Source: an uncultured Eubacteriales bacterium (GTDB lineage Bacteria > Bacillota > Clostridia > Lachnospirales > Lachnospiraceae). Taken from it: 64,000 nt of DNA. Position 1 is the stretch's first letter. Each line of letters begins with the position of its first letter. The position numbers and the translations under genes were made by a program. The notes under the pieces are model-generated. The model worked only from the letters and a program-made list of their open reading frames with translations. It ran no database searches and had not been told where the DNA came from. Shown one piece after another: positions 2-58,397 of the stretch. The stretch is taken from positions 33,106 to 97,105 of the forward strand of contig OMWV01000046.1 in assembly GCA_900314845.1 (NCBI GenBank), in the 5' to 3' direction.

Positions 2-775
2 GTCTATGCTATGGGAGGGAAGCCTAAGATCGCCCTCAACCTGGCAGCTTTCCCGAACTGCCTGGATCCGGCTATCCTTGCCGATATCCTGGCAGGCGGC
101 GCCGACAAGGTAAAAGAGGCCGGCGCGGTGCTTGCGGGCGGCCATTCGATCAGCAGCGACGAGCCCCTCTACGGGCTTGCCGTCACGGGCTTTGTAAACC
201 CGGCAGCCATGTGGAAAAACGCCGGAGCAAGGGCCGGGGACGCGCTGATCCTGACAAAGCAGATCGGCACAGGAGTTGTGAATACTGCTTTTAAGGGCGA
301 AGCAGCTTCCGACGCGTCGGAGGCAGAGGCCATCCATGTCATGAGATCACTGAATGCAAAGGCCAGGGATGTCCTGGCAGGGTTCTCTGTCCATGCCTGC
401 ACAGATATCACAGGCTTTGGGCTTATCGGCCACAGTCTTGAGATGGCAAGGGCAGGCGGGGTAACGCTGGAGATCCGGGCCAGATCTGTACCCCTGATCA
501 CGGGCGCGGCAGACTATGCCGAGGAGGGTTTTGTCCCTGCCGGCGCCTACAGGAACCGGGATTATATGCAGGACTGCGTAGATGAGGGAAAGATGAGCAG
601 GACGCTTACGGATCTGCTTTATGATCCTCAGACTTCCGGGGGTCTTCTCTTCGCGGTGAGCGATGAGGATGTCCCTGATATCATGCACGCCCTCGCGGGA
701 GCCGGTATGGAGACAAAGACGGCTCTTGTGGGTCATGCAGTCAAGGCCCAGACAAAAGCAATCAGGCTGCGCTGA
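2..775 (+). CDS. selD: Selenide, water dikinase SelD (5' end outside window)
   Basis: This is the C-terminal part of selenophosphate synthetase, which makes selenophosphate from selenide and ATP for selenocysteine (and selenouridine) synthesis. The frame is already open at the window edge and reads VYAMGGKP, a typical SelD segment, so the true start and the catalytic Cys/Sec loop lie upstream. Family hallmarks are the LAGGHS and PLYGLAVTG segments early on and the YDPQTSGGLL motif near the C-terminus. About 257 of the usual ~345 residues are present. It is followed by selA and selB on the same strand. The stop codon is part of a strong terminator-like hairpin. Confidence 0.97.
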   Translation, partial: VYAMGGKPKIALNLAAFPNCLDPAILADILAGGADKVKEAGAVLAGGHSISSDEPLYGLAVTGFVNPAAMWKNAGARAGDALILTKQIGTGVVNTAFKGEAASDASEAEAIHVMRSLNAKARDVLAGFSVHACTDITGFGLIGHSLEMARAGGVTLEIRARSVPLITGAADYAEEGFVPAGAYRNRDYMQDCVDEGKMSRTLTDLLYDPQTSGGLLFAVSDEDVPDIMHALAGAGMETKTALVGHAVKAQTKAIRLR

Positions 776-794
776 TCTTCAGTGCAGCCTTTTT
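764..794 (+). terminator. Terminator/attenuator hairpin overlapping selD stop
   Basis: A 12-bp stem (764-775 with 779-790, one G-U pair) with a 3-nt loop is followed by a run of five T. The selD stop codon TGA (773-775) forms the top of the left arm. It has the form of a Rho-independent terminator. Its place between two genes of one pathway suggests partial termination or attenuation before selA. I see no clear new promoter between it and selA. Confidence 0.8.
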
Positions 795-830
795 CGGTAG
801 ATAACAAAAAACCTTATCCAGGGAGGAAAT

Positions 831-2246
831 ATGGAGAAAAGACTCTTTTACAGAGAGATTCCCAAGGTAGACTCATTTCTGGAGACAGAAGAAATAAAAG
901 AGCTGATCCGGCTCTACGGCAGGGAACCTGTCACCCGGGCTGTGAGGGAGGAGGAAGCTCTTCTGAGGGATTTCATCTTTAGCAGCAGCAGGGAGGAAGA
1001 AATAAAGGAGAAGATCAGAAACTTCGGTCAGGCGGTCGGACAGAGGGTCCAGGCAGTATTTTCCCCGGACCTGCGCCGGGTGATCAATGCGACGGGCATT
1101 ATCCTGCACACGAATCTTGGCAGGGCACCGATCGGGGAAATGGCGGCAGACCACCTGCGGGATGTGATCACGGGCTACTGCAATCTTGAATATAACCTCA
1201 TGGAGGGCAGGCGGGGAGAGAGGTATTCCCATTTTGAGGCCCTTTTGTGCTCACTGACCGGGGCTGAGGCCGCCATGGCAGTCAACAATAACGCGGCGGC
1301 AGTCATGCTGGTCCTGAGCAGTCTGGCGAGGGGCGGAGACGTTGTCGTATCCAGGGGGGAGCTCGTGGAAATCGGGGGAAAGTTCCGTGTTCCCGAGGTC
1401 ATCTCCATGAGCGGGGCCCATCTTGTGGAAACAGGGACGACAAATAAGACCCATCTCTCAGATTATGAGAAGGCCGTAAGTGAGCAGACAAAAGCATTTC
1501 TCAAGGTCCACACAAGCAATTACAGGATCGTGGGCTTTTCGGAGCTTGTGGATGCCGGTCAGATCCGGGAGCTGGCCGAGCGCCTGGATATCCCGGTCGT
1601 AGAAGATCTTGGCAGCGGCAGCTTTGTCGACCTGCGGCCCTTTGGCTGTGAATATGAACCGACAGTCCAGGAAGAAATAAAAAAGGGAGTGGATCTGGTC
1701 TGCTTCAGCGGAGATAAGCTGCTTGGCGGCCCTCAGGCCGGCATTATAGCAGGCCGCAGGAAATATATAGACCTGATAAAGAAAAATCCTCTGACGAGGG
1801 CTCTGCGCATCGATAAGTTTACGGCGGCGGTCCTTGAGCAGACTCTGCTGGAATATCAGGCTCCCGGCAGGGCTTCTTCCCGGCTGCCTGTGCTGAGAAT
1901 GATAGAAGAGAGCAGAGAAAGCATAAAGAAGCGCGCGCAGCGGCTGGCGGACCTGCTTGCCCCGGCCGGGGCGTTTGCCCGGATAGAGTGCTGTCCCTCC
2001 CAGTCCCAGATCGGAGGGGGAGCCATGCCCCTGACAGACCTTAAGAGCATGGCTGTGACCATAAAACCTTCGAATATGAGTGCTGCCGGCTTTGAAAGAG
2101 AGCTTCGTGCTCTGCCTGTCCCTGTCATAGGCAGGATAAAGGATGACAGGATCTGGCTGGATGTGCGGACTATGGGAGATGAGGACATAAATGAAGCGGC
2201 AGAGCAGATCAATGATCTGCTTGCCCGGACAGGAGACAGGCCATGA
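831..2246 (+). CDS. selA: L-seryl-tRNA(Sec) selenium transferase
   Basis: The predicted PLP enzyme converts seryl-tRNA(Sec) to selenocysteinyl-tRNA(Sec) with selenophosphate. The length of 471 residues is normal for bacterial SelA. The PLP lysine is visible in SGDKLLGGPQAG (about Lys296), and the segment INATGIILHTNLGRAP is typical of the family. The ATG at 831 has a good ribosome site (GGGAGGAAA) directly upstream. Its 3' end overlaps selB by four bases (ATGA), so the two are translationally coupled. No tRNA-Sec gene is seen in the window. Confidence 0.97.
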   Translation: MEKRLFYREIPKVDSFLETEEIKELIRLYGREPVTRAVREEEALLRDFIFSSSREEEIKEKIRNFGQAVGQRVQAVFSPDLRRVINATGIILHTNLGRAPIGEMAADHLRDVITGYCNLEYNLMEGRRGERYSHFEALLCSLTGAEAAMAVNNNAAAVMLVLSSLARGGDVVVSRGELVEIGGKFRVPEVISMSGAHLVETGTTNKTHLSDYEKAVSEQTKAFLKVHTSNYRIVGFSELVDAGQIRELAERLDIPVVEDLGSGSFVDLRPFGCEYEPTVQEEIKKGVDLVCFSGDKLLGGPQAGIIAGRRKYIDLIKKNPLTRALRIDKFTAAVLEQTLLEYQAPGRASSRLPVLRMIEESRESIKKRAQRLADLLAPAGAFARIECCPSQSQIGGGAMPLTDLKSMAVTIKPSNMSAAGFERELRALPVPVIGRIKDDRIWLDVRTMGDEDINEAAEQINDLLARTGDRP

Positions 2247-4159
2247 AGCATTTTACTATCGGCACGGCAGGTCACATCGACCATGGCAAGACGGCACTTA
2301 TCAAGGCGCTGACAGGCCGTGATACGGATCGGTTAAAAGAGGAAAAAGAAAGAGGGATCACCACCGAGCTTGGGTTTACCTGGTTCGACACTTCTGACGG
2401 TGACCGCTGCGGCATCGTGGACGTTCCCGGCCATGAAAAATTCATCCGCCATATGGCGGCGGGAGCTGCCGGCATGGATCTTGTCCTTATGGTTGTGGCG
2501 GCTGACGAGGGCATGATGCCCCAGACCAGGGAGCATCTGGATATTCTGGAGCTTCTGGGCGTAAAAAAGACAATTCTTGTGATAAACAAATGCGACCTGG
2601 TGGACGAGGGCTGGCTGGAGCTTGTGAAGGAAGACCTGAAGGAGGAACTGAAGGGGACGATCATGGAAAATGCGCCGCAGGTCTGCGTTTCTGCCCTTAC
2701 AGGCCAGGGAATCGATGAGCTGAAGAGCCTGATCTCCAGGATGGTGAGAGAGGAGATGGAGCCGAGGGATGTGAACAGCATTCCCAGGCTCCCCATAGAC
2801 CGGGTCTTCACGCTCCCGGGATTCGGGACAATCGTTACGGGGACTCTGCTCTCGGGCATGATAGGTAAGGGGGATATCCTGCAGCTGTACCCGGAGGGCA
2901 GATCGTGCCGGGTCAGGAATATTCAGGTCCACGGAGAGAACCAGGACTTCTGCCAGGCCGGTCAGAGGAGCGCCCTGAACCTGGCGGATCTGTCGACAGA
3001 CCAGATCAGGAGAGGAGATGTCATTTCCCTGCCGGGGTGCATGAAGAACACAAGCCTTATTGATGTCAGGCTGGTCCTGCTTGGGGATTCCCAGCGGACC
3101 GTGATAAACCGGGAAAGACTGCATTTCTTTACCGGGACAGCGCATATCCTCTGCCGTGCCATTCTCCTGGACGCGAAAAAGCTGGAGCCGGGTCAGTCCT
3201 GCTTTGCCCAGCTGCTTCTGGAGGAGGAGACCGTAGTAAGAAGAGGAGATCGGTTTGTTGTCAGATTCTATTCTCCCCTTGAGACGATCGGTGGAGGCAT
3301 AGTCCTTGAACCTTTGCCGGCAGGGAGAAAAAAGCGTTTTGACCCGGATGCCGTAAAAGAACTTGTGAGGAAGGAGAAGGGGTCTCTGGCTGATGTGGTC
3401 GAGATGCGTGCAGAGGAGGCCGGTCTCAGGCTGATCAGCGTGTCAGAGATTGCCAGGGCGGCAGGGCGTACCTGTGAGGAGACAGCCCTTGCAGCCGAAA
3501 AGCTGGCTCAGGAGGGGAGTATATTCCTGTATGAGGCGAAGAATGATTCCTTTGTCTGGCACAGGGGCAGCATGGCTGCTCTGGCGGCTGCTCTGCGCCG
3601 GGATCTGGCAAAATACCATCAGGAGCATCCTTACAGGAGAGGCATGCCCAGGGCTCAGCTTAGGACCACATATATGAAGTCTGTGAAACTGAATCTGTTT
3701 GATCTGTGTATGGACACTCTGGCCCGGGAGGGCGTTATATGGCAGCCCGGTTCGGATATCGCGCTGGCGGGTTTTTGCATCCCTCAGGATGAGCTCAGAG
3801 AGGCCATAACAGGCAGGATCAGCAGTGCCCTTGAGGAGGCCGGCTTTAACTTTCTCAGGGTCTCTGAGATCGATCTGAAGGCCTTCCCGGCGGACGCGGT
3901 GCAGGATATCTTTCAGCTGATGGCAGAAGAAAATATCCTGGTCCGTATCTCTGAGGATGTCTATACCATGAGCCGCTTTGTTGAGGAAGCGAAAAAATTT
4001 GTCGAAGACCATTTTCAGAAGGAGGAGATCCTCACGATCGTTCAGCTGAGGGATCATTTCGGGACGAGCCGCAAATGCGCTAAGCTTCTGATCGCTTACT
4101 TTGACCAGATCAGGCTCACCCGCAAAGCGGGCGCGGAGACGGAAAGGGTCAGGGCCTAG
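2243..4159 (+). CDS. selB: Selenocysteine-specific elongation factor SelB
   Basis: This translational GTPase delivers Sec-tRNA(Sec) to UGA codons that carry a SECIS element. The GTPase motifs are clear: GTAGHIDHGKTAL near residues 6-18, VDVPGHEKF, and NKCD. EF-Tu-like beta-barrel domains follow. The C-terminal part (about residues 370-638) has the size and helical character of the winged-helix repeats that bind SECIS RNA. It has 638 residues, normal for the family. It is the last gene of the sel set; a separate promoter lies downstream. Confidence 0.97.
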   Translation: MKHFTIGTAGHIDHGKTALIKALTGRDTDRLKEEKERGITTELGFTWFDTSDGDRCGIVDVPGHEKFIRHMAAGAAGMDLVLMVVAADEGMMPQTREHLDILELLGVKKTILVINKCDLVDEGWLELVKEDLKEELKGTIMENAPQVCVSALTGQGIDELKSLISRMVREEMEPRDVNSIPRLPIDRVFTLPGFGTIVTGTLLSGMIGKGDILQLYPEGRSCRVRNIQVHGENQDFCQAGQRSALNLADLSTDQIRRGDVISLPGCMKNTSLIDVRLVLLGDSQRTVINRERLHFFTGTAHILCRAILLDAKKLEPGQSCFAQLLLEEETVVRRGDRFVVRFYSPLETIGGGIVLEPLPAGRKKRFDPDAVKELVRKEKGSLADVVEMRAEEAGLRLISVSEIARAAGRTCEETALAAEKLAQEGSIFLYEAKNDSFVWHRGSMAALAAALRRDLAKYHQEHPYRRGMPRAQLRTTYMKSVKLNLFDLCMDTLAREGVIWQPGSDIALAGFCIPQDELREAITGRISSALEEAGFNFLRVSEIDLKAFPADAVQDIFQLMAEENILVRISEDVYTMSRFVEEAKKFVEDHFQKEEILTIVQLRDHFGTSRKCAKLLIAYFDQIRLTRKAGAETERVRA

Positions 4160-48130: not shown

Positions 48131-48208
48131 TGCTGGTTAAAGATCTGATGACTGAAGCGCCGGGCGGGGCAGATAGATTTTGTGGATCAATCAGACTGAC
48201 AAAGGAAA

Positions 48209-48242
48209 GGCCGGTATATCTGATCGCTCAGATATACCGGCC
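48209..48242. terminator. Bidirectional terminator between the DUF6076-like gene and fixX
   Basis: A 15-bp perfect stem (GGCCGGTATATCTGA / TCAGATATACCGGCC) with a TCGC loop. It is followed by TGATATTTTG on the plus strand and TTTCCTTTG on the minus strand. The T-runs are imperfect but the stem is very strong. It ends the lut-men-fix operon and the plus-strand gene. Confidence 0.85.
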
Positions 48243-48298
48243 TGATATTTTGTTCAGGCTGTCAGGCCGCATCCGGCCAGACAGGCAGAGGTATTAAA

Positions 48299-48583
48299 TT
48301 AACCCTGACGGTAGAATACACCCTTTGTACCCATAGGATAGTTCCAGCCCTTTACGATCTTGTCGTGAGAAAGGACTCTGCAGGTGCCGCATTCAAGACA
48401 TCCGAGGTGGCTGAATGAGAACTGTCCGTCTTCATACTTATAGCACTCAGCGGGGCAAGCAAGAACAAGCTTGCGGATCTCCGCTTCGTCCGTTGTTTCT
48501 TTATCCACATCAATGTGAGAATTCTCTTCGTCTGTGTGGAATAAATCTAATGCGAGCTTATCCTCGATAGTCATTTTCTTCAT
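48299..48583 (-). CDS. fixX: FixX-like ferredoxin
   Basis: A small ferredoxin-like protein (94 aa) that partners FixC. Conserved cysteines are in LVLACPAECYKYEDGQ and HLGCLECGTCRVL, typical of FixX/ETF:quinone oxidoreductase iron-sulfur domains. I start at 48583 (MKKMTIED), one base after the fixC stop. It is the last gene of the cluster. Confidence 0.92.
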   Translation of the reverse strand: MKKMTIEDKLALDLFHTDEENSHIDVDKETTDEAEIRKLVLACPAECYKYEDGQFSFSHLGCLECGTCRVLSHDKIVKGWNYPMGTKGVFYRQG

Positions 48584-48584
48584 C

Positions 48585-49880
48585 TTAGAACGCCTCCAAT
48601 ACATCACTAATCATGTTAACAAGATCTGTAGCAGTGGTATGCTCAGCAAGGGAGTTGATAATGTACATTACAATACCGCGGTCAGGCTGGCCGTCAACCG
48701 TGAAGAGCTTAGCAGCAATGTCATCAACCATCTCAGGCAGGTTAGTGAACATTTCACGGCGTGTAAGCAATGTCGGGAATCCCTTAGCGGAATCAAGATC
48801 GCGCTTGATGAAGCTGTCATTGATCAGCTGTTCATAGTATGAAAGTGCAGCTGCGCTGAAGTTGCCATATGTGTTTGCTCTGATAACAGTCTCAGCAGCA
48901 AGACGACCGGACTCGATAGCGAAATCCATACCGCGTACTGTGAAGCCGAGGTTTATGCAGAAACCAGCAGCATCGCCTGTAACAAGAACGCCGTCACCGT
49001 AAAGCTTCGGAACCATATGGATGCCTTCCTCAGGTACCAGATGAGCAGAATACTCGATAACTTCGCCGCCCTCAAGGAGAGGAGCAATTGCCGGATGATT
49101 AGCAAATCTGTCAACCATCTTGGGAACAGATACATCTGTATAACCGATATCGCAAAGTGTTGCACAGACACCTAATGATACAGTGTCCTTATTTGTATAG
49201 AGGAATCCGCCGCCGAAAGCGCCTGTTGTAGGATCGCCGTCAACCATCATGGATGCGCCCTCACCGCTCTTGAGGCCGAAACGCTCGTTAATAACTTCTT
49301 CGCTGAGCTTGATAACTTCCTTAGCGCCAACAGCAACCTGTGAAGGCTCGAGTTCCTTCTTAAGTCCAAGCTTCTGAGCAAGGAGAGAGTTAACGCCGTC
49401 AGCAAGGATAACTACATCAGCGTAGAGCTCGTCTTCTCCGGCCTGGATACCAACAACCTTGCCATCCTCAACGATACAATCATCAACACGGATACCGGGG
49501 ATGATCTCAGCTCCGGCTTCCTCAGCTTTCTCTGCGAGCCAGCTGTCAAACTTTGCACGAAGTACTGTATAGGATGCATTCTCAGGCTTGCTGCTGAGCT
49601 TGTCAGAAGCATAGGTTACATTGAGGGCACCGGTCTCTGTCATAAGAGAGATCATTTCCTTGGTAACCTTTCTCTCGATGGGAGCTTCCTCAGCAAAATT
49701 GGGGATGATCTTCTCAAGGCTGTGTCCATAGAGACGGCCGCCAGTTACGTTCTTCATACCGCACTCATCGCCGCGCTCAATAACGAGAACGTCAAGTCCT
49801 GCTTTTGCAAGAACGATGGATGCTGAAAGGCCTGCGAGTCCTCCACCAACGATTATGGCGTTAAATTTGTCTTCGCTCAT
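48585..49880 (-). CDS. fixC: FixC-like FAD-dependent oxidoreductase
   Basis: A 431-residue flavoprotein related to ETF:quinone oxidoreductase, passing electrons from an ETF (FixAB/EtfAB) to a quinone or ferredoxin. The dinucleotide motif GGGLAGLSASIVLAKAG is at the N-terminus, and LVTGDAAGFCINLGFTVRGMD is the second FAD site. It forms a pair with fixX. Neither fixA nor fixB (etfBA) is in the window, so the electron donor must be encoded elsewhere. Upstream are menG, menA and a prenyl synthase, which suggests a quinone acceptor. Confidence 0.94.
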   Translation of the reverse strand: MSEDKFNAIIVGGGLAGLSASIVLAKAGLDVLVIERGDECGMKNVTGGRLYGHSLEKIIPNFAEEAPIERKVTKEMISLMTETGALNVTYASDKLSSKPENASYTVLRAKFDSWLAEKAEEAGAEIIPGIRVDDCIVEDGKVVGIQAGEDELYADVVILADGVNSLLAQKLGLKKELEPSQVAVGAKEVIKLSEEVINERFGLKSGEGASMMVDGDPTTGAFGGGFLYTNKDTVSLGVCATLCDIGYTDVSVPKMVDRFANHPAIAPLLEGGEVIEYSAHLVPEEGIHMVPKLYGDGVLVTGDAAGFCINLGFTVRGMDFAIESGRLAAETVIRANTYGNFSAAALSYYEQLINDSFIKRDLDSAKGFPTLLTRREMFTNLPEMVDDIAAKLFTVDGQPDRGIVMYIINSLAEHTTATDLVNMISDVLEAF

Positions 49881-49921
49881 AATATTTCCTCCTAGTTAAT
49901 CTCTGTCAATCAGTTGTTTTC

Positions 49922-50632
49922 TCAGGCCACCGGCTTGCTTCCCCATACCATGGAGCATGCACCGAACATTCTGTCACGGCTGCCGATATTCCTGAGACCG
50001 CCCTTGTGGTAAAGTTTCTCCAGCTCTCTCCTGCTCAGGAAATGCTGGGTAGATTTCCACAACCATCGGTATTCACGAGTGTGACTTTTTCCGCCGCCTA
50101 TTAGAGGCATGATATCGCGGAAATATAACCTGTAGAAGGGAAGCACAAATCTGTTTTCGGGTACAAACGAATCCAGACAGTATATAGATCCGCCCTTCTT
50201 CACTACCCTCATCATTTCTGTGACAACCTGCTGATAATCTGCTGTATTCCTCAGCCCGAATGAAATGCTTACTGCCGCAAACGTATCGTCCGGCCATGGC
50301 AGATGCATAGCATCGGCCTTTGTCCATCGAATATTCTTCAGTCCCCTGCCCTTATTCCTGGCTAATTTAAGCATAGAGACCGAAAAGTCAGCTCCTGTTA
50401 CCCTGAGATCAGGGCGTCTGCGAGCGGATGCGATTGCAATATCGCCCGTACCGCAGCACAGATCAAGGATCCTTTCTCCGGATGGAATATCCGCAGTCAG
50501 GTCATTTATCAGCATTTTCTTCCAGTATCTCTGAAACCCAAGGCTGATGCGGCGGTTTGCCTTATCATACCCTGAAGAAATACTTTCAAATACGCTGTGT
50601 ACGTATTCTTCTTTAGTGACACCATGTATCAT
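49922..50632 (-). CDS. menG: Demethylmenaquinone methyltransferase (MenG/UbiE)
   Basis: A SAM-dependent C-methyltransferase of 236 residues. ERILDLCCGTGDIAIASARR is the SAM-binding motif I, AVSISFGLRN the UbiE-specific segment, and the N-terminus VFESISSGYDKANR is diagnostic. It would convert demethylmenaquinone to menaquinone. It is directly downstream of menA. Confidence 0.93.
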   Translation of the reverse strand: MIHGVTKEEYVHSVFESISSGYDKANRRISLGFQRYWKKMLINDLTADIPSGERILDLCCGTGDIAIASARRRPDLRVTGADFSVSMLKLARNKGRGLKNIRWTKADAMHLPWPDDTFAAVSISFGLRNTADYQQVVTEMMRVVKKGGSIYCLDSFVPENRFVLPFYRLYFRDIMPLIGGGKSHTREYRWLWKSTQHFLSRRELEKLYHKGGLRNIGSRDRMFGACSMVWGSKPVA

Positions 50633-50633
50633 A

Positions 50634-51566
50634 CTACCCGAATAAACCTCTCAGACAAAGCCCGAAAGCAAGAGATAAAATGTAAGCTCCGTTCCCGGAC
50701 ATGTTTGCCGCTGCAACTGTCTTCATAAGCCGGATCCTTCCTTCCGGCATCAGATCCGCTTTGAATAGATATATGAACTTTCTTCCGGCTGCCGCTGCGA
50801 AAACAGGGGCACAGATCAAACCGGAAGCACCTGTCAGGATAACAGGCAGCACAAGAAGCAGTACAGCCCATATTATCACAAGTGTATGATAGACGGCTCT
50901 TGTACGATTCCTTCCCAGGTAGGTAGTCAGCGTACGCCTGCCGGATTTCAGATCCTTCTCAATGTCACTTCCATTATTGCTCATCATGATCAGTGCGATG
51001 CCGATCATGAGCGGCAATGCCCAGAAGAGAACTTCTGCATGGATTCGATTATCTGATATTGCTGCTATTCCCAGAGGAATAAGCCCGCCCATCACAAAAC
51101 CCGATACAAATTCTCCAATAGGCAGATAAGATATTGGCAGCGGCCCTCCCGAATAAAGTACAACCGCAAGTCCGCCTGCAATACCTATCAGTATGGGTGT
51201 AAACCCTGCCGGAAGGCTGGCACATATCCCAAGCAGGGCACCAGCTGCAAGATATGCTGTCCCCAGGATCAACGCATGCGCAGGATTCACATTGGCGTAT
51301 ACCAGTGTCGCATCACTGACTTCAACATTATCCTCTGCGCTGTCATTGCCATGAACAAAATCAATATAATCATTCAGGGTGTTTACAGAAGACTGCATCA
51401 GGATACATGCAGCAAATACTGCTATATTCTGCAATATATTCAGATGCAGACCACAGACAGCACAATACAATTCTCCAAACAAGGCCGGACAGATCGATGC
51501 CGCCCATGTATGCGGCGCTGCCAGCTGCAATGCAAGCCTTGGGGACAGCCTGTTATATGTATTCAT
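50634..51566 (-). CDS. menA: UbiA-family prenyltransferase (MenA-like)
   Basis: A polytopic membrane enzyme (310 aa, about 8-9 helices) that attaches a polyprenyl tail to an aromatic acceptor, probably 1,4-dihydroxy-2-naphthoate. The two Asp-rich sites are NDYIDFVHGND and SDIEKD. It is followed by menG and preceded by a polyprenyl synthase, forming a tail-synthesis and attachment cassette. The naphthoate genes (menF, D, C, E, B) are not in the window. Confidence 0.88.
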   Translation of the reverse strand: MNTYNRLSPRLALQLAAPHTWAASICPALFGELYCAVCGLHLNILQNIAVFAACILMQSSVNTLNDYIDFVHGNDSAEDNVEVSDATLVYANVNPAHALILGTAYLAAGALLGICASLPAGFTPILIGIAGGLAVVLYSGGPLPISYLPIGEFVSGFVMGGLIPLGIAAISDNRIHAEVLFWALPLMIGIALIMMSNNGSDIEKDLKSGRRTLTTYLGRNRTRAVYHTLVIIWAVLLLVLPVILTGASGLICAPVFAAAAGRKFIYLFKADLMPEGRIRLMKTVAAANMSGNGAYILSLAFGLCLRGLFG

Positions 51567-51567
51567 A

Positions 51568-52605
51568 TTAGATGTACAATAGTTTCAAGATGTTGCGGAA
51601 TACCTGTACCGCTGCGCAGTAATCCAAACTGCCCAGGATACTGAGACATCTCTGACTCATTCTGCGGATCTCCCGTACTGTTGCATCTGTTCCGCCGTAA
51701 CGGACTACAGCTTCTTCCATGCGAGCGATATCACTGTCACTGATCCTGTGTTTTGAATTCTCTTGTATGATCGGCAGCAGTACCTTTCTGCCCTCAGGAT
51801 CTTTAAGAGTCATCAGAACAGGCATGGTATAGATACCATCTCTGAAATCCTTATGAGTTTCCTTGCCTATCTGAGCCTCATCGGATGTAAAATCAAGCAG
51901 GTCATCTCGCAGCTGGAACATAGTTCCCAGACATTCGCCGAAAGCTGAAAGCTTTGATACAGTCTCCTTTGAACATCCCATTTCAGAAGCGCCTAATTGG
52001 CATGCCGCTTTAAATAGTGCTGTAGTCTTTCCCTGAATATTCCACAGGTAATCATCTGTTGACACATCTTCCCGATAGCGGCACATAGCCTGTCCGATCT
52101 CGCCCTCGCACATATGCTCAATGGTTTGAGATAAAACAGCAGCTGCTTCATTCATATTTTCCCTGGCGAGCGTGTAATTAATCCTGCAGATAATAAAATC
52201 ACCTGCATATACGGCAGCATCTTTGCCATATTTACTCTGCACAGATCTCTCGCCCCGCCTGAAAGGCGCGTCATCGACGATATCGTCATGTATGAGGGAC
52301 GCTAGATGCGTCAACTCGATCATTGCAGCCAACTTGAATAATTTATCTTTTTTTACCTCATAGAAGGGGCCAAATGAACCACTCAACAGCACAAGCCGGG
52401 GCCGGATCATCTTGCCGGCCGTGCTGAACGCATCATCCAGTACTGCTCCGACTTGTGTGCCGTTAAGTGAGTGCGATGCAATGAGCTGCATTTCTTTTTT
52501 AACCTGCTCGAGATCGCTCCCGAGCAGGCTCTCAAAATCCCTGACATCGGATATTGAGATATTATTTTCTCGCATATCTGCAGAAACAATAGACTGTTCT
52601 GGCAT
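51568..52605 (-). CDS. Trans-polyprenyl diphosphate synthase
   Basis: A chain-elongating prenyl synthase of 345 residues, probably making the C30-C45 tail of the quinone. The first Asp-rich motif is LIHDDIVDDAPFRRG, the second LRDDLLDF. It has a normal ribosome site (CGGAG) and sits 1 bp before menA. Chain length cannot be told from sequence by eye. Confidence 0.92.
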   Translation of the reverse strand: MPEQSIVSADMRENNISISDVRDFESLLGSDLEQVKKEMQLIASHSLNGTQVGAVLDDAFSTAGKMIRPRLVLLSGSFGPFYEVKKDKLFKLAAMIELTHLASLIHDDIVDDAPFRRGERSVQSKYGKDAAVYAGDFIICRINYTLARENMNEAAAVLSQTIEHMCEGEIGQAMCRYREDVSTDDYLWNIQGKTTALFKAACQLGASEMGCSKETVSKLSAFGECLGTMFQLRDDLLDFTSDEAQIGKETHKDFRDGIYTMPVLMTLKDPEGRKVLLPIIQENSKHRISDSDIARMEEAVVRYGGTDATVREIRRMSQRCLSILGSLDYCAAVQVFRNILKLLYI

Positions 52606-52635
52606 GTTTAATTCTCCGGAATCTTTTGAATTGGA

Positions 52636-54816
52636 TCAGATAAGTCCTCTCTTCTCAGCAATAACTTCTGCTGTATGCTTTACAGTTATAGGCAGATCTG
52701 CTGCATCAAGACCACCCCTGATCTGCATCATACATCCAGGACAATCAACTACAACATAGTCAGCGCCGGTATCTTTGATATTGTTGATCTTCTTCTCAAG
52801 GATCTTCTGAGAGATCTCAGGATACTGGATGCAGTAAGCACCACCGAAACCACAGCAGTTGTCGTGTTCGAACATCTCTGTGAGTTCAACGCCGTTTGTA
52901 TGAGTGAGGAGTTCTCTCTGCTCCTGGCTGACACCGAGTGCTCTGTTAAGGTGGCAGGAATCATGGTAAGTGATCTTCATCGGCTTATCATCGCCAGAAT
53001 CCTGAAGACCGCCAAGCATGTAGAACAGCTTGCAGAAATCATAGGACTTATCACTTAATTCTTTAGCCTTAGCATACTCCTCTGTGCCTTCATCAAAGAA
53101 TGTTGCATATTTGCGGAGCTCTTCTGTACATGAAGGGCAGGCAGATACGATATAATCGTAATCTTCTGCATGCATAGCCTCGATGTTGTTGATAGCCGCG
53201 TTGACTGCATTCTCGGGATCGCCCATTGTAATTGCCGGGCTTCCGCAGCAGCCCTGATCCATAGGCATGTCAACAAGATAGCCGATGGAGTTCAGATCAA
53301 GGACAACATCCCTGGCGATATCTGTGTATACGAAATCAAGCAGACATCCTGCAAAGAGAGCGATCTTTCCTTTCGGGTTCGGAACATTCTGAACGATCGT
53401 CGGGAATATATCTCTGAACGGTACAGGAGCAACAGTAGGAAGGCTTCTGCCAACTGTAAGGTTCGAAAGGAACATAGGCAGATGACGGATCATAGGAGCA
53501 CCCTTTGAGAAAGGCTGCTGAGCTACGGAAGCGATCCTCAGCATGGAATGGAAAAGCTTTCTGTTGTTGACAGTCTCAATGGCGAATCTCTGAACGGAAT
53601 CAGGATTAGCCTTTGCTTTCCTGTTGCGGAGAGTCATGATCATCTCGGGGATCTGCATGCCGACAGGACATACATCCTTACATCTTCCGCACTGCAGACA
53701 GATATTCTGAATAGCATCCGCACGTACAGGGTCGATGAGGAACTGTGTCAGCATAACGCCGATGCCGCCGCCGTAAACTCGAGAACCGAATGCGTGTCCG
53801 CCGACGAGAGCGAATGCAGGGCACATATCCTGGCAGCCGCCGCATCTGATGCAGTTGAATACCTGACGGAAATCGGGATCTGCAAGGATGGAACGACGTT
53901 CCGGTGTATCAAGAATGACGATCTGGAATTCCTTATCAGCCTTCTCATCCGTCTCTTTGTTCATTACAACCTGGTTCGTGCCGGTGTACATGGAAAGATA
54001 AGCGGTAATCCTCTGGCCCGTGCCGTTACGAGGAAGAACTCTGAAGACATATTCAGCATCCTTAAATCTTCTTACAAATTTTTCAATACCGAAGAGATAA
54101 AGGTGATGGGTAGGAAGGGTAGCGACCATACGGCCGTTGCCTTCGTTCGTCATTGTACAAACTGTACCTGTCTCAGCAATCGCACAGTTGCATCCGGAGA
54201 AGCCGATATCGCATCTGATGAACTTATCACGCATGATCTTACGTGCTTCTTTTGTCTCGTCATCGATGGTATGTGATACTTCATGTTTCTGGAAATCTGT
54301 AAAAAGATCACCTACCTGATCTCTGTTGAGATACAGAGCAGGCAGAACCAGATGCATCGGTGTGTTGTGATCAAGCTGAAGGATGAAATCACCGAGGTCG
54401 GCGCCGAATACGTCGATTCCATGCTCTTCAAGGACTTCATTCATCTGCAGCTCTTCTGAAGCCATAGACTTTGATTTTACAACAAGCTTTGCGTTTCTGT
54501 CTGTACAGAACTTAAGGATAAAATCCATTGCCTCTTTGTTGGATTTTGCTCTGAAGACTTTTGCACCTCTTGCTGTAGCGTTCTTTGTGAACATTTCAAT
54601 CATTTCGTCTACATGATTGGCTGCGTCTTCCTTTGCTGCAACAAGGTTTTCCTTGTTTGCCTCAAAGTCGATACCGATATTAGCCTTTGCACGCTTAGCA
54701 GGATAATCCGCGCACATTTTGCCAAGGGTCTTGTTGAGAGTAACATTGGCAAGAGCGATCTTTACTTCATTATTTAATTTGTCATTCGCTTTTTTTAATT
54801 CTTCCTGAGTAGCCAT
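52636..54816 (-). CDS. LutB-LutA fusion (LUD, 2x[4Fe-4S], CCG domains)
   Basis: A 726-residue fusion of two lactate-utilisation-type proteins. The N-terminal LUD domain (about 1-300) is followed by two [4Fe-4S] motifs (CIRCGGCQDMCPAF about 320, CLQCGRCKDVCPVG about 370). Two CCG domains follow (GCCGSP about 523, NCCGFGG about 653) like LutA/GlpC/HdrB. It is predicted to be part of an oxidase/reductase complex acting on lactate or a related hydroxy acid. It is immediately downstream of lutC. I start at 54816 (MATQEEL). Confidence 0.9.
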   Translation of the reverse strand: MATQEELKKANDKLNNEVKIALANVTLNKTLGKMCADYPAKRAKANIGIDFEANKENLVAAKEDAANHVDEMIEMFTKNATARGAKVFRAKSNKEAMDFILKFCTDRNAKLVVKSKSMASEELQMNEVLEEHGIDVFGADLGDFILQLDHNTPMHLVLPALYLNRDQVGDLFTDFQKHEVSHTIDDETKEARKIMRDKFIRCDIGFSGCNCAIAETGTVCTMTNEGNGRMVATLPTHHLYLFGIEKFVRRFKDAEYVFRVLPRNGTGQRITAYLSMYTGTNQVVMNKETDEKADKEFQIVILDTPERRSILADPDFRQVFNCIRCGGCQDMCPAFALVGGHAFGSRVYGGGIGVMLTQFLIDPVRADAIQNICLQCGRCKDVCPVGMQIPEMIMTLRNRKAKANPDSVQRFAIETVNNRKLFHSMLRIASVAQQPFSKGAPMIRHLPMFLSNLTVGRSLPTVAPVPFRDIFPTIVQNVPNPKGKIALFAGCLLDFVYTDIARDVVLDLNSIGYLVDMPMDQGCCGSPAITMGDPENAVNAAINNIEAMHAEDYDYIVSACPSCTEELRKYATFFDEGTEEYAKAKELSDKSYDFCKLFYMLGGLQDSGDDKPMKITYHDSCHLNRALGVSQEQRELLTHTNGVELTEMFEHDNCCGFGGAYCIQYPEISQKILEKKINNIKDTGADYVVVDCPGCMMQIRGGLDAADLPITVKHTAEVIAEKRGLI

Positions 54817-54839
54817 TATTTTGCCTCCTTCCTTTCTGA

Positions 54840-55394
54840 TCACTCATCTTCTACGACGATTGCCGTGAGATTAAGAGGACCATGAACGCCTACTACAGAT
54901 ACCATCTCGATATCAGATGTACGGCTGGGACCGGTGACTATACCTATGAAATTAGGATGTTCCGGGAGAGCTCCAATAGTATCGAAGAAGTCACTCCACT
55001 CAGAAATTACATTCGAACCCTTTACTACGCATACCATAAGCTCTGACAGACATGCGACGATACGGCGATCAACGTCTGTTCCTGTCTGAACGATAGAACC
55101 GAGGTCGGCGATAGCGTACTGTGATTCTGTTACTCCGCCTTTAGCAGTTTCCTGATTAAGACGTATGTGATCTGTGTACGTCTTGATTCCTGCCTCTTCC
55201 ATTGCCTTGCCAACTCCTGCTTCCTTCAGAAGAGGCGTCTCTGCGAGACAGGCATCCGTATAACCATAATCGTCCTTAAGTGCTTTGACTACTGTTTTAG
55301 CAAGGTCTGCTTTCGATGTACGATAACACTTTCCGGCAACAGCCTCAAGTGCGGATTTAAACCGATCGTACACTTCATCTTTAATCATACTCAT
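54840..55394 (-). CDS. lutC: LUD-domain protein LutC
   Basis: A 184-residue LUD-domain protein, the third component of LutABC-type lactate utilisation. The segment ESQYAIADLGSIVQTGTDVDRR and FIGIVTGPSRTSDIEMVSVVGVHGP are diagnostic when read in parts. It is the first gene of the operon. AAAGGAG precedes the ATG. Confidence 0.9.
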   Translation of the reverse strand: MSMIKDEVYDRFKSALEAVAGKCYRTSKADLAKTVVKALKDDYGYTDACLAETPLLKEAGVGKAMEEAGIKTYTDHIRLNQETAKGGVTESQYAIADLGSIVQTGTDVDRRIVACLSELMVCVVKGSNVISEWSDFFDTIGALPEHPNFIGIVTGPSRTSDIEMVSVVGVHGPLNLTAIVVEDE

Positions 55395-55537: not shown

Positions 55538-55565
55538 ATTATAAATTATCAAGGCACATTTGCAA
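55538..55565 (-). promoter_or_regulatory. Promoter of the lut-men-fix operon
   Basis: On the minus strand TTGCAA (55565-55560), 16 bp and TATAAT (55543-55538). The C6G6 palindrome ends one base before the -35. Confidence 0.7.
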
Positions 55566-55566
55566 G

Positions 55567-55578
55567 CCCCCCGGGGGG
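55567..55578. promoter_or_regulatory. CCCCCCGGGGGG palindrome, candidate CsoR-family operator
   Basis: A perfect 12-bp GC palindrome with an AT-rich flank (ATATAT) on one side, directly next to the -35 of the lutC promoter. CsoR/RcnR/CstR proteins bind GC-tract palindromes with A/T flanks, and such a regulator is encoded at 58125-58397. The link is inference. Confidence 0.55.
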
Positions 55579-55592
55579 ATATATTGTCTGCT

Positions 55593-56759
55593 TTATAAAA
55601 GATAAACTTTTAACAAACCGTTTTTATATTCAAAATGATCAAGATTTCGCTCCTTTACGTTTTCGGGTATCTGAAATCTTCTCCTCTCATTTCTGATCGT
55701 CAGCAGTATGTCACCTTCCATCTGGCCGACGGAAATCTCCTCTTTTTTCGTGAAGGGCAGTTCAATGTTCATCACCGTATGTCCATCTTCTTCTGCAACA
55801 GAGAATATATTTTCCTTCACAAAAATATCTTCCAGGTTCTCGTCGCCGTAGACTTCATCTGCGGCTGCTCTGAGTGAATCCAGACCTCTCAGCTCGTGAT
55901 CCTTTAAATACATCTTGAATATTTTTACCCCGGGAAAACTCTCCTGGGCAAGTTTCATGTTATCTGCCTGGGTTTTTGTCCAGCTGCTGAAATAGCCCGA
56001 CATTGCATCTTCGGGATAGATTCTGTTTATGATCACCGCGTCGACGTTGAAGTCATACATATGCATCCACGTATAATTGCGTCTTGCCTCTTCGAGGACG
56101 ATCCTTTCCGTCGTCGTCACGATCCGTATGCTTGTGATCTCCGGATCGCTGAGGATCTTCTGGAGTTTCATCAATCTGTCATTCAATTTGCCAAAATCCC
56201 TGAACACCTTATCTGAAGGTTTGGGCACGTTTGTTTTCAGGCTGACTGCTATGCCTGCGGTAAATGTAAATGCTCTGACTACAGGGAGAAGGCGTTTTAC
56301 CATCTGGCCGAGGCGCTCGGGGAAACGGAGCAGAGCCAGTGTTTCGCCCGTAGGGGCACAGTCTATGATCAGATCATCGCATGCGTCATCCGTATATGCG
56401 TCCAGGATCTTAAGCATGGCAAAAAGTTCATCAAGAGTAGGTACAGCCAGTGCCTCGTCGACTTCTATGCTGTCATCACTGTGTTTATTTTTGTTTATGA
56501 TCGTCTTGATATATTCCTGAAGGCTCCCCCAGGCTTTTTTTGTTTCCAGTGTCGTGTCTATTTCAAGAGCCTGCAGATTATCACAGATCTGCCTGGGCTC
56601 GTCATTCAGCTTTACATCAAATGAGTCTCCGAGACTGTGAGCCTGATCCGTGCTCATGATAAGAACTTTTCTTCCCTTTGAAGCCAGCTTGCAGGCTGCG
56701 GCGGCAGCCATACTTGTTTTGCCGACGCCGCCTTTGCCTGTATAAATGATTATTCTCAT
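55593..56759 (-). CDS. ArsA/Get3-family ATPase with HSP20-like C-terminus (second copy)
   Basis: A 388-residue deviant-Walker ATPase. GKGGVGKTSMAAA is the P-loop with the signature Lys, DQAHSLGDSFD is switch I, and DLIIDCAPTGETLALLRFP covers switch II. The C-terminal about 85 residues resemble the small-heat-shock-like domain found on many bacterial ArsA proteins. The paired cysteines that bind arsenite in classic ArsA are not seen, so a chaperone/targeting role (Get3d-like) fits better than arsenite export. No arsB is nearby. It overlaps the first copy by 4 bp. Confidence 0.88.
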   Translation of the reverse strand: MRIIIYTGKGGVGKTSMAAAAACKLASKGRKVLIMSTDQAHSLGDSFDVKLNDEPRQICDNLQALEIDTTLETKKAWGSLQEYIKTIINKNKHSDDSIEVDEALAVPTLDELFAMLKILDAYTDDACDDLIIDCAPTGETLALLRFPERLGQMVKRLLPVVRAFTFTAGIAVSLKTNVPKPSDKVFRDFGKLNDRLMKLQKILSDPEITSIRIVTTTERIVLEEARRNYTWMHMYDFNVDAVIINRIYPEDAMSGYFSSWTKTQADNMKLAQESFPGVKIFKMYLKDHELRGLDSLRAAADEVYGDENLEDIFVKENIFSVAEEDGHTVMNIELPFTKKEEISVGQMEGDILLTIRNERRRFQIPENVKERNLDHFEYKNGLLKVYLL

Positions 56760-57952
56760 ATCCTGAATCCCTCTTTTCCTGCAGAAAGTATTATATTCAA
56801 TTTGCCGTCTTTATATTCAGTATCTTTAACTATGCTCCCCGTGAGGGTGTAAGGGAGGGGAATGACACGGTTCTGTTTTCCGGCCCGGACAGATATATCC
56901 ATATCATGTCCTGTTACTTCTATCTCATCTTTATCAATAAAGGGAATGGAAAGACTCAGACAGTAGTCATCTCCCTGCCTGGTGTATGTTTCGGTCTCCC
57001 CTGTGTTTCGTACGGAAAAGATATCTTTCAGGTTCGTATCCTGAAAATTCTCTCTACAGAATTCCCGCAATGCATCAAGACCTCTGACCTCTTTTGGATA
57101 CCATCTGAGTTTCATCATTGGAATTCCTGTAAATACATTTTCCAGTTCCGTTATATAATTATTCTGAATGTTATACCATTTCATAAAGAAGTCATTATCT
57201 TCAAGTCTGGGGATGATACGGTTAACGTATATGCCGTCGACATGGTAATGGTAAAGATTCAGATACATATAGCTTCTCTTTGTTTCCTCTACCACCATCT
57301 TTTCAGGAGTACATACGATGCGGATCGACGTTTTATCTCTATCCTTGAGAAGGTTCTGCACCTTCATCAGAGAAAGATAGATCCGCTGTGTATCATTCAT
57401 CGCGTCTTGGTCCGGCATCTCAACTTTCATAAAAGTCTTCGTGATGGGAGAAAGAATTCTAAAGGCTACTTTGCCTACAGGGAAAAGCTTCTCCATATAC
57501 CAGGAAAGAAGCTCGGGAAGCTTGAGCATAGATAATGTCTCTCCTGTCGGGGCACAGTCAACGATGATCCTGTCATAATTGCCTTCTTCATCCAGCTGAG
57601 TGATCTTCATCAGGGAGAAAAGACTTTCCAGACCGGGAACTACGGTAAACTGATCCTGCTCGCTGGGCTTTACACCGGCCGAATTCAGGATGCCCTGCCA
57701 GGAATTCATGAAATCAGGGAAATCATGCTGCATGATCAGATCCGGATCCAGCTCTACTGCGTCAAGATAATCGCCTGCATGTACGATTTCGCTTCCGACA
57801 TTCATCTCAAAAAAATCCCCGAGATTGTGAGCCATGTCAGTGCTCACAAGCAGAGTCTTTTTTCCTTCAGAAGCAGATGCAAGGGCGTGAGCTGATGAGA
57901 TCATAGTCTTGCCAACTCCACCTTTGCCAGTAAAAATGATAATTCTGCTCAT
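56756..57952 (-). CDS. ArsA/Get3-family ATPase with HSP20-like C-terminus (first copy)
   Basis: A 398-residue homologue of the downstream gene with the same order: P-loop GKGGVGKTMISSA, STDMAHNLGDFFE, DCAPTGETLSMLKLPELL, and a beta-rich C-terminal domain (CLSLSIPFIDKDEIEVTGHDMDI, read in parts) of the HSP20-like kind. The two copies are clearly diverged, so they may form a heterodimer. The 170-bp upstream region holds two inverted repeats and probably the operon promoter. Confidence 0.88.
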   Translation of the reverse strand: MSRIIIFTGKGGVGKTMISSAHALASASEGKKTLLVSTDMAHNLGDFFEMNVGSEIVHAGDYLDAVELDPDLIMQHDFPDFMNSWQGILNSAGVKPSEQDQFTVVPGLESLFSLMKITQLDEEGNYDRIIVDCAPTGETLSMLKLPELLSWYMEKLFPVGKVAFRILSPITKTFMKVEMPDQDAMNDTQRIYLSLMKVQNLLKDRDKTSIRIVCTPEKMVVEETKRSYMYLNLYHYHVDGIYVNRIIPRLEDNDFFMKWYNIQNNYITELENVFTGIPMMKLRWYPKEVRGLDALREFCRENFQDTNLKDIFSVRNTGETETYTRQGDDYCLSLSIPFIDKDEIEVTGHDMDISVRAGKQNRVIPLPYTLTGSIVKDTEYKDGKLNIILSAGKEGFRI

Positions 57953-58124: not shown

Positions 58125-58397
58125 TTATTTAACAAATTTATCGATCGCATCATCCAGATGTCTGACAGCGTCTTCATTATTCTCATTAAGGGCATCGTCA
58201 ATACACCGTCTGAGATAATCCTTCAGGATAAGCCTTTCCGTACTTGTTATTGCTGATCGGACCGCTCCCAGCTGGATCAGCACATCATTAAAATCCCGGC
58301 CGTCGTCTATCATTCTTCTGACAGCCTGCAGATGACCGGATACCTTTGCCAGTCGATTCATCACTGCTCTTTTCTTTTCGTCACTGTAATTTGGCAC
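58125..58397 (-). CDS. CsoR/RcnR-family (DUF156) repressor with altered ligand site
   Basis: A 90-residue all-helical regulator of the metal/persulfide-sensing family (KRAVMNRLAKVSGHLQAVRRMI). Numbering matches M. tuberculosis CsoR, where copper is bound by Cys36, His61 and Cys65. Here these are Phe36, Tyr61 and Cys65, so it probably does not sense copper in the usual way. It starts with GTG (58397) after AAGGAG. It lies between the amylase gene and the ArsA pair. Confidence 0.88.
   Translation of the reverse strand: MPNYSDEKKRAVMNRLAKVSGHLQAVRRMIDDGRDFNDVLIQLGAVRSAITSTERLILKDYLRRCIDDALNENNEDAVRHLDDAIDKFVK

Follow-up and report, generated by a model that had tools for sequence, protein, structure and literature searches.

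A 64,000-nucleotide stretch of contig OMWV01000046.1 from an uncultured Eubacteriales bacterium (assembly GCA_900314845.1, Lachnospiraceae), referred to below as the window, carries a compact run of seven genes that, judged by their families, bring together a lactate dehydrogenase, enzymes for finishing a membrane quinone, and a protein pair that connects quinones with electron-transfer flavoproteins (ETFs). The genes for LdhG, LdhH, a long-chain polyprenyl diphosphate synthase, a MenA-like prenyltransferase, MenG, FixC, and FixX are all present and open on the minus strand between positions 48299 and 55394, as the first-pass annotation of this DNA had reported, and the gaps between them measure 1 to 41 bases. 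The proteins were assigned to families by means of Pfam and NCBIfam models with curated cut-offs (Table 1). Numbers preceded by L, C, and G designate loci, contigs, and genomes, respectively, and statements attributed to published papers rest on excerpts of their text unless the main text is named.

The seven genes and their products

LdhG is a separate LUD-domain subunit encoded directly beside LdhH, which itself combines a LUD domain with two 4Fe-4S sites and two CCG domains. LdhH passes NF045670, the curated model for the quinone-type L-lactate dehydrogenase LdhH, and its 18 cysteines, 8 of the Fer4 type and 10 from the CCG region, are invariant in all 31 sequences of sufficient length for alignment. 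Its start was placed at the ATG at 54816; a GTG-initiated open reading frame reaches 54843. The first-pass annotation had called this pair lutC and a lutBA fusion; the domains are as it described them, but the pair is better named LdhG/LdhH (LldG/LldH), the form described in Desulfovibrio vulgaris.

In the polyprenyl synthase, both Asp-rich motifs are conserved (23 of 23 aligned sequences). The last two steps of quinone synthesis had also been claimed for this gene set. MenG clears TIGR01934 and falls narrowly short of its best equivalog (206.6 bits versus 216). The MenA-like protein passes the Pfam UbiA model and stays below every MenA equivalog cut-off, the best NCBIfam match being a 1,4-dihydroxy-2-naphthoate (DHNA) polyprenyltransferase at 148.4 bits versus 277.

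FixC scores below the FixC-named model PRK10157 (493.5 bits versus 610) and passes PF21162 (ETFQO_UQ-bd), the quinone-binding domain of ETF:quinone oxidoreductase, at 28.6 bits with a cut-off of 27.7. The closest solved structure is that of Thermotoga EtfC (7koe_C, 284 bits). For FixX, the ATG at 48583 was taken as the start, as a GTG-initiated frame from 48607 would overlap FixC; cysteines 43, 62, 65, and 68 are conserved in 31 of 31 aligned sequences. No FixAB or EtfAB is encoded within the window's operon, so that FixC and FixX stand there without FixA and FixB, as had been noted earlier.

Table 1 Positions of the genes and signals in and around the seven-gene set (positions are those of the window)
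Feature	Position	Strand	Length (amino acids)	Match or remark
Terminator-like hairpin downstream of fixX	48208..48243	-		16 pairs, T-rich tail
FixX, ferredoxin-like subunit	48299..48583	-	94	NF011993, 79 bits (below cut-off of 166)
FixC, ETF:quinone oxidoreductase flavoprotein	48585..49880	-	431	PRK10015, 516 bits (cut-off 466)
Sigma-70-like site directly before fixC	49881..49909	-		TTGACA-17-AATATT, 10/12, consensus match only
MenG/UbiE methyltransferase	49922..50632	-	236	TIGR01934, 229.7 bits (cut-off 158.35)
MenA-like UbiA prenyltransferase	50634..51566	-	310	PF01040, 99 bits
Long-chain polyprenyl diphosphate synthase	51568..52605	-	345	PF00348, 206 bits
LdhH (LutB-LutA fusion)	52636..54816	-	726	NF045670, 914.5 bits (cut-off 800)
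LdhG (LldG/LutC-like), LUD-domain subunit	54840..55394	-	184	PF02589, 72.9 bits
Sigma-70-like promoter before ldhG	55538..55565	-		TTGCAA-16-TATAAT, 10/12 matches, consensus match only
Perfect palindrome CCCCCCGGGGGG beside the -35 box of ldhG	55567..55578	.		Candidate operator
ArsA/Get3-like ATPase 1, HSP20-like tail	55593..56759	-		PF02374, 246 bits; PF17886, 46 bits
ArsA/Get3-like ATPase 2, HSP20-like tail	56756..57952	-		PF02374, 255 bits; PF17886, 52.5 bits
CsoR/RcnR-family repressor gene, upstream of the ArsA pair	58125..58397			PF02583

Conservation of the gene order

An alignment of 18 MenA rows was scanned over named genomes, which yielded 173 relatives; 80 loci among them were analysed, with family names taken from the record titles and with many of the loci being contigs of metagenome-assembled genomes (MAGs). 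A module locus was defined as one in which LdhH (more than 45 % identity) is encoded on the same strand as MenA and precedes it by at most 4 kb. This was the case in 34 of the 80 loci, in which the gene order is kept, in line with the survey of other genomes that the first-pass annotation had proposed; because LdhH defines these loci, its own linkage is not an independent count. Of the 34, 30 have LdhG, 33 MenG, 32 FixC, and 30 FixX; the misses (4, 1, 2, and 4, respectively) all fall at contig ends. In 22 loci the gene for the polyprenyl synthase separates LdhH from MenA; the other 12 lack it there, though that interval is on the contig. Among the 46 MenA loci without the module, FixC was found in 2, FixX in 1, and MenG in 18. 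Chance co-occurrence was rejected on the strength of 34 loci from one MenA clade and of the difference in FixC (32/34 versus 2/46).

In a tree of 81 MenA proteins, all 35 LdhH-linked sequences, that of the window included, fall in one clade of 36 rows (support 99/97). Six Bacillota families are named in the records of this clade: Lachnospiraceae, Oscillospiraceae, Clostridiaceae, Eubacteriaceae (Pseudoramibacter), Filifactoraceae (E. yurii), and Veillonellaceae (Megasphaera). The module is rare in the window's own family, where MenA was detected at E <= 1e-30 in 6 of 299 genomes: three of these carry the module (the window's genome and G438 and G302, with loci L203 and L060), G418 and G395 are without it, and the sixth, G582, lay outside this locus comparison. 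In a sample of the order, 27 of 344 genomes, the window's included, have a MenA at E <= 1e-10; the MenA of G302 is 53 % identical to that of the window and the others are 26-38 % identical. From the 26 other genomes 18 loci were fetched; the one from G302 reproduces the window's seven genes and their order, and the remaining 17 are without the module. The seven genes are a conserved, predicted operon.

A different quinone cluster of Lachnospiraceae was seen in L142 (3482-11665), L216 (1076-10372), and L217 (8226-17622). By eye and with weak LdhH matches, it consists of a polyprenyl synthase, HdrABC/MvhD-like proteins, and an NAD/FAD oxidoreductase, followed by MenA-MenG.

Lactate and the supply of quinone

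Deletion of DVU3032-3033, which encode the D. vulgaris counterpart of LdhGH, slows growth of that organism on L-lactate (PMC4481167). A lactate permease is present in 33 of 35 module genomes versus 4 of 14 control genomes, and in two loci (L089 and L114) LctD, which in lct clusters is the dehydrogenase for D-lactate, is encoded upstream in the same gene run. On the basis of its family, LdhGH likely oxidises L-lactate onto a quinone.

A second lactate-quinone arrangement was observed just outside the module clade, in L097 (8039-11591) and L102 (5341-10746): here, MenA-MenG without LdhH stand beside a lactate-permease-like open reading frame (by eye), and L102 also has LctD.

The 35 module genomes had been picked for carrying the module. 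None of them has a MenD over the cut-off, the best match reaching 75.9 bits versus 244.2, and 7 of the 14 control genomes pass; the weak MenD matches in 34 of the 35 are probably other thiamine-diphosphate enzymes. The MqnA/MqnD family (PF02621) gave no match in 34 of the 35, among them the window's genome. The early quinone genes, which the first-pass annotation had noted as absent from the window, were not found elsewhere in its genome either, within a search that covered MenD and MqnA/D, with MenB, MenC, MenE, and MenF outside it. Because MenD and MqnA/D were not found, the pathway as found starts at DHNA, the inferred substrate of MenA. The quinone would probably be finished from scavenged DHNA, the ring not being made by these cells. 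Gut bacteria that depend on neighbours for DHNA or menaquinone have been described (PMC5738691).

Candidate ETF partners of FixCX

The window's genome encodes four EtfB/EtfA pairs, all away from the operon, which agrees with the earlier expectation of an ETF encoded elsewhere. One locus (L024), on another contig, has the order LctD-acyl-CoA dehydrogenase-EtfB-EtfA behind Rnf (Rnf read by eye), with no permease seen beside it; the best model for the acyl-CoA dehydrogenase is acryloyl-CoA reductase (511 bits, below the cut-off of 640). EtfBA precedes the module in 3 of the 34 loci, and a Bcd-like (butyryl-CoA-dehydrogenase-like) gene does so in 4 of them. L089 and L114 show the order LctD-EtfB-EtfA-Bcd-LdhG-LdhH-PrenS-MenA-MenG-FixC.

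The residue at position 123 of the A. fermentans EtfB is Gly in bifurcating ETFs and tends to be bulkier in canonical ones (PMC12630350). In this column, Tyr is present in L089 and L114 and Val in the LctD-linked pair of the window's genome (C63), while the other pairs of that genome (C37, C2, and C32) have Gly. The ETF adjacent to the module looks canonical in two relatives and bifurcating in one. A canonical ETF of F. nucleatum passes electrons from D-lactate straight to Bcd (PMC12630350). The module looks like an L-lactate branch that reaches the same ETF via a quinone. Since the potentials of lactate, menaquinone, and crotonyl-CoA are -190, -74, and -10 mV, respectively (PMC12630350, PMC12051018), such a shuttle is overall downhill and thus allowed.

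The order FixC-FixX-EtfB-EtfA, with an EtfB of the Gly type, was observed in a Hungatella MAG (L145, 1134-12544). In this and another Hungatella MAG (L151), a further EtfBA directly precedes MenA-MenG-polyprenyl synthase.

Other possible exits for the quinol

The first-pass annotation had proposed a search for quinone-dependent reductases. Cytochrome bd was found in none of the 35 module genomes, and a respiratory chain that uses it was rejected on this ground. The window's genome has no molybdopterin oxidoreductase, although such enzymes do occur in some other module genomes (see below). It has 17 FAD_binding_2 matches, the two strongest of which are NadB (542 bits, cut-off 472), on C63, a contig separate from that of the operon, and an AprA-like adenylylsulfate reductase (863.8 bits versus a cut-off of 557; L027, 7488-12157) beside CysD/CysN-like genes (by eye). 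A fumarate- or urocanate-type reductase in this genome was rejected because the two strong matches are NadB and AprA; this assessment covered those two, the window's FixC being one of the 15 weaker matches. In the loci with neighbours read by eye, no terminal reductase was noticed next to the module.

FMN_bind proteins, which were searched for in the window's genome alone, are encoded at C52 (157, 387, and 525 amino acids) and C57, and C24 encodes a Fer4_5/FMN_bind polyferredoxin protein that we take to be NosR-like (loci L174, 8358-11781; L177, 3918-5333; L176, 8672-9802). Flavin-based extracellular electron transfer by these proteins is possible.

Signals and neighbouring genes

The two sigma-70-like sites, before ldhG and before fixC, tie for the best score, and promoter-like matches are no commoner in the window than in its shuffles (21 versus 17.4). 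Terminator-like matches number 16 versus 7.0 in shuffles, with some weaker ones inside the gene set. The palindrome beside the -35 box of ldhG occurs at a single site in the window, where 0.15 would be expected with at most one mismatch, and was not seen by eye in the loci of relatives; it is a candidate operator confined to the window's lineage. Operators shared across other loci were looked for and none was found. An inverted repeat, GTTAG-N6-CTAAC, was observed by eye upstream of ldhG in L083 and L094.

The two ArsA/Get3-like ATPases are often linked to the module; they are neither exclusive to it nor part of its core. ATPase 1 was found in 22 and ATPase 2 in 24 of the 34 module loci, and neither in any of the 46 remaining MenA loci. 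In the window and in L079 the pair precedes ldhG, and in L087 it does so in divergent orientation. Downstream of MenA, one ATPase occurs in 22 of the 34 module loci and the other in 20; L078, L088, and L108 lack the pair despite room. ATPase 1 is present (E <= 1e-30) in 16 of 299 genomes of the family, of which 13 have no MenA match at the same threshold, and the pair was for that reason rejected as a quinone-specific part. By analogy with Get3d, which has a hydrophobic chamber (PMC10248533), the pair may be a helper for membrane targeting or hydrophobic cargo. Where ArsA pairs occur without the module (L204-L208 and L210-L215), they follow a small regulator-like open reading frame of about 160-175 amino acids in 11 of 11 readable loci out of 13 (by eye), as in a stand-alone cassette.

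The CsoR-like repressor was rejected as a part of the module, as a scan of 81 loci gave no homologue. By eye, the protein seems to be missing two of the metal ligands typical of its family. At the far end of the window (11-4159), selD-selA-selB-like genes were recognised by eye, which suggests the use of selenocysteine.

A proposed lactate-to-ETF shuttle and its rivals

The interpretation of the first-pass annotation, in which electrons pass from lactate through an ETF to a quinone, is partly supported. The link to lactate stands, by the family of LdhH, the permease, and LctD; the order of the electron carriers was changed, as LdhGH itself is by family a quinone-type lactate dehydrogenase, so that electrons of lactate need not reach the quinone through an ETF. 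The reading put forward here, to which we give a probability of about 0.5, is that the operon serves a shuttle without terminal oxidase from L-lactate through LdhGH, (demethyl)menaquinone, FixCX, and an ETF to an enoyl-CoA reductase. In this scheme LdhGH would turn L-lactate into pyruvate and reduce the quinone, as its family suggests, while the polyprenyl synthase, MenA, and MenG would make the (demethyl)menaquinone from imported DHNA. FixCX, judged by family and quinone-binding domain, would swap electrons between the quinol and EtfAB, and would more likely link the quinone with ETF and with enoyl-CoA reductases, the electrons passing one way or the other. Gene neighbourhoods and the enzymology of F. 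nucleatum suggest that EtfAB would donate to an acyl-CoA dehydrogenase of the butyryl- or acryloyl-CoA type and would also accept electrons of D-lactate from LctD. The quinone would thus be a closed membrane shuttle rather than the start of a respiratory chain. That this closed shuttle runs on DHNA derived from neighbours, so that a cross-fed vitamin K precursor sets the yield of butyrate or propionate that the guild obtains from L-lactate, is a more tentative proposal, held at rather below even odds.

Several observations weigh against the shuttle. Just 4 of the 34 loci have EtfBA or Bcd next to the module, and a stretch of 1.5 kb or more precedes LdhG in 24 of the 34. As the ETF of F. nucleatum has potentials of -70 and -122 mV (PMC12630350), the step from quinol to ETF would be nearly level and reverse flow possible, and the quinone may serve as a buffer too. 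Transcription may possibly start internally before fixC, which would make fixCX a separate unit. In L086, the 36th row of the MenA clade, MenA-MenG (258-1869) are followed by no FixC or FixX in 10 kb downstream; the contig reaches 258 bases beyond MenA on its upstream side, too few to judge LdhH there. One of the 35 module genomes has a match to PF02621, and since MenA falls under all curated MenA cut-offs, its substrate is not certain. Of the 17 module genomes (out of 35) that were tested for molybdopterin oxidoreductases, 9 have them, and the FMN_bind proteins together with the NosR-like polyferredoxin could drain quinol to the outside. Finally, the ETF upstream of the module in L111 is of the Gly type and looks bifurcating.

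This last ETF, like the Gly-type FixC-FixX-EtfB-EtfA run of L145, fits a system of the EtfABCX type, in which FixCX and a bifurcating EtfAB would let menaquinol from lactate and reduced ferredoxin jointly reduce NAD, amounting to a two-piece confurcating lactate dehydrogenase. The nearest structural relative of FixC is Thermotoga EtfC, the Gly-type EtfB at C37 is nearest to that of A. fermentans, and the genome has Rnf (by eye). Yet no FixAB lies beside FixCX in the module loci, and the upstream EtfB has Tyr in L089 and L114, as the LctD-linked EtfB of the window's genome has Val; we consider this system doubtful, though it deserves to be kept in mind. It is unlikely that the quinol instead feeds anaerobic respiration or extracellular electron transfer, through the predicted flavinylated FMN_bind proteins or, in some species, molybdopterin reductases. 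The proteins at C52 and C57, the NosR-like one at C24, and the 9 genomes with molybdopterin oxidoreductases speak for such an exit. Gut strains that combine an incomplete menaquinone pathway with terminal reductases are also known (PMC5738691). Against it stand the lack of cytochrome bd in all 35 genomes and of a molybdopterin enzyme in the window's genome, the identity of the strongest FAD_binding_2 matches (NadB and AprA rather than a fumarate or urocanate reductase), and the fact that what lies beside the module, in the loci read by eye, is FixCX and no terminal reductase.

That FixC is a prenyl-chain reductase of the MenJ or geranylgeranyl-reductase type, in an operon for quinone biosynthesis plus lactate dehydrogenase, seems very improbable: its place immediately behind menG and its matches to TIGR02032 (117.5 bits) and MenJ (51 bits) would suit that role, but both matches are below cut-off, FixC-type models give 516 and 493 bits, PF21162 is over its cut-off, and FixX follows in 30 of the 34 loci with the misses at contig ends. 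The identification was rejected for these scores, for PF21162, and for the trailing FixX. Hardly any weight at all is given to a quinone that serves chiefly to accept electrons from NadB and similar biosynthetic dehydrogenases, with an incidental linkage to the lactate genes, as the presence of NadB well over its cut-off would allow; NadB lies on a separate contig, and LdhH precedes MenA in 34 of 80 loci, where FixC is then present wherever the contig extends.

Relation to known systems

LdhGH/LldGH of D. vulgaris (DVU3032-3033, luo operon) has the same two-protein layout as the window's pair (PMC4481167). In the luo operon it is accompanied by a permease, Pta, Ack, and a D-lactate dehydrogenase, in a sulfate-respiring cell (PMC4481167), whereas the run of the window joins LdhGH to quinone-finishing genes and FixCX, in fermenters. 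In the lct cluster of Lachnospiraceae and Fusobacterium (LctD-EtfBA-Bcd), lactate is coupled to an ETF and butyryl-CoA dehydrogenase (PMC8914356, PMC11406415, PMC12630350), and the same genes precede the module in L089 and L114. The lct cluster differs in acting on D-lactate with a flavin dehydrogenase and in having no LdhGH. The word menaquinone is absent from the main texts of PMC8914356 and PMC12630350, as is FixC from PMC12630350, and a quinone-FixCX branch in Lachnospiraceae did not appear in the excerpts of the lactate-cluster papers PMC8914356, PMC11406415, PMC12630350, and PMC13411273.

The FixC and FixX of the window are homologous to EtfC and EtfX of the FixABCX/EtfABCX complexes (7koe; PMC5861303, PMC10734219). 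Unlike these, the operon has no FixAB/EtfAB, and its partner ETF is encoded elsewhere and looks canonical in two relatives. A scheme that, as proposed here, joins lactate, an ETF-quinone enzyme, and menaquinone has been drawn for Moorella thermoacetica (PMC12051018); this acetogen contains cytochromes and quinone and uses an NAD-dependent lactate dehydrogenase with NADH as donor, and the excerpts of that paper show no operon uniting these genes. Quinone-scavenging gut bacteria likewise have an incomplete menaquinone pathway and take DHNA or menaquinone from neighbours, but they were described with terminal reductases, and the word lactate is absent from the main text (PMC5738691). In deep-sea Chloroflexi, use of quinone was inferred in single-cell genomes from menA and ubiE/menG alone, and these genomes also hold lactate dehydrogenase, EtfAB, and Rnf (PMC5736913). 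Lactate is discussed there by way of the confurcating Ldh-EtfAB, and no such gene cluster is seen in the excerpts of that paper (PMC5736913).

The individual parts are known enzymes, found here in a conserved combination with a possible ecological consequence. Text searches of the open PubMed Central literature aimed at the seven-gene combination brought up no description of it (subscription papers were outside this scope), which accords with the first-pass statement that no system with exactly this set was known. Clostridial fermentation is usually regarded as quinone-free. Coupling through the membrane and menaquinone was once considered for the reduction of crotonyl-CoA, but C. kluyveri has genes neither for an ETF:quinone oxidoreductase nor for menaquinone (PMC5861303). 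The guild of fermenters described here carries both things that C. kluyveri lacks, tied in conserved order to an L-lactate dehydrogenase. If the proposed shuttle is true, DHNA from other microbes would control the removal of L-lactate and the formation of butyrate or propionate in fermenters of the gut and rumen.

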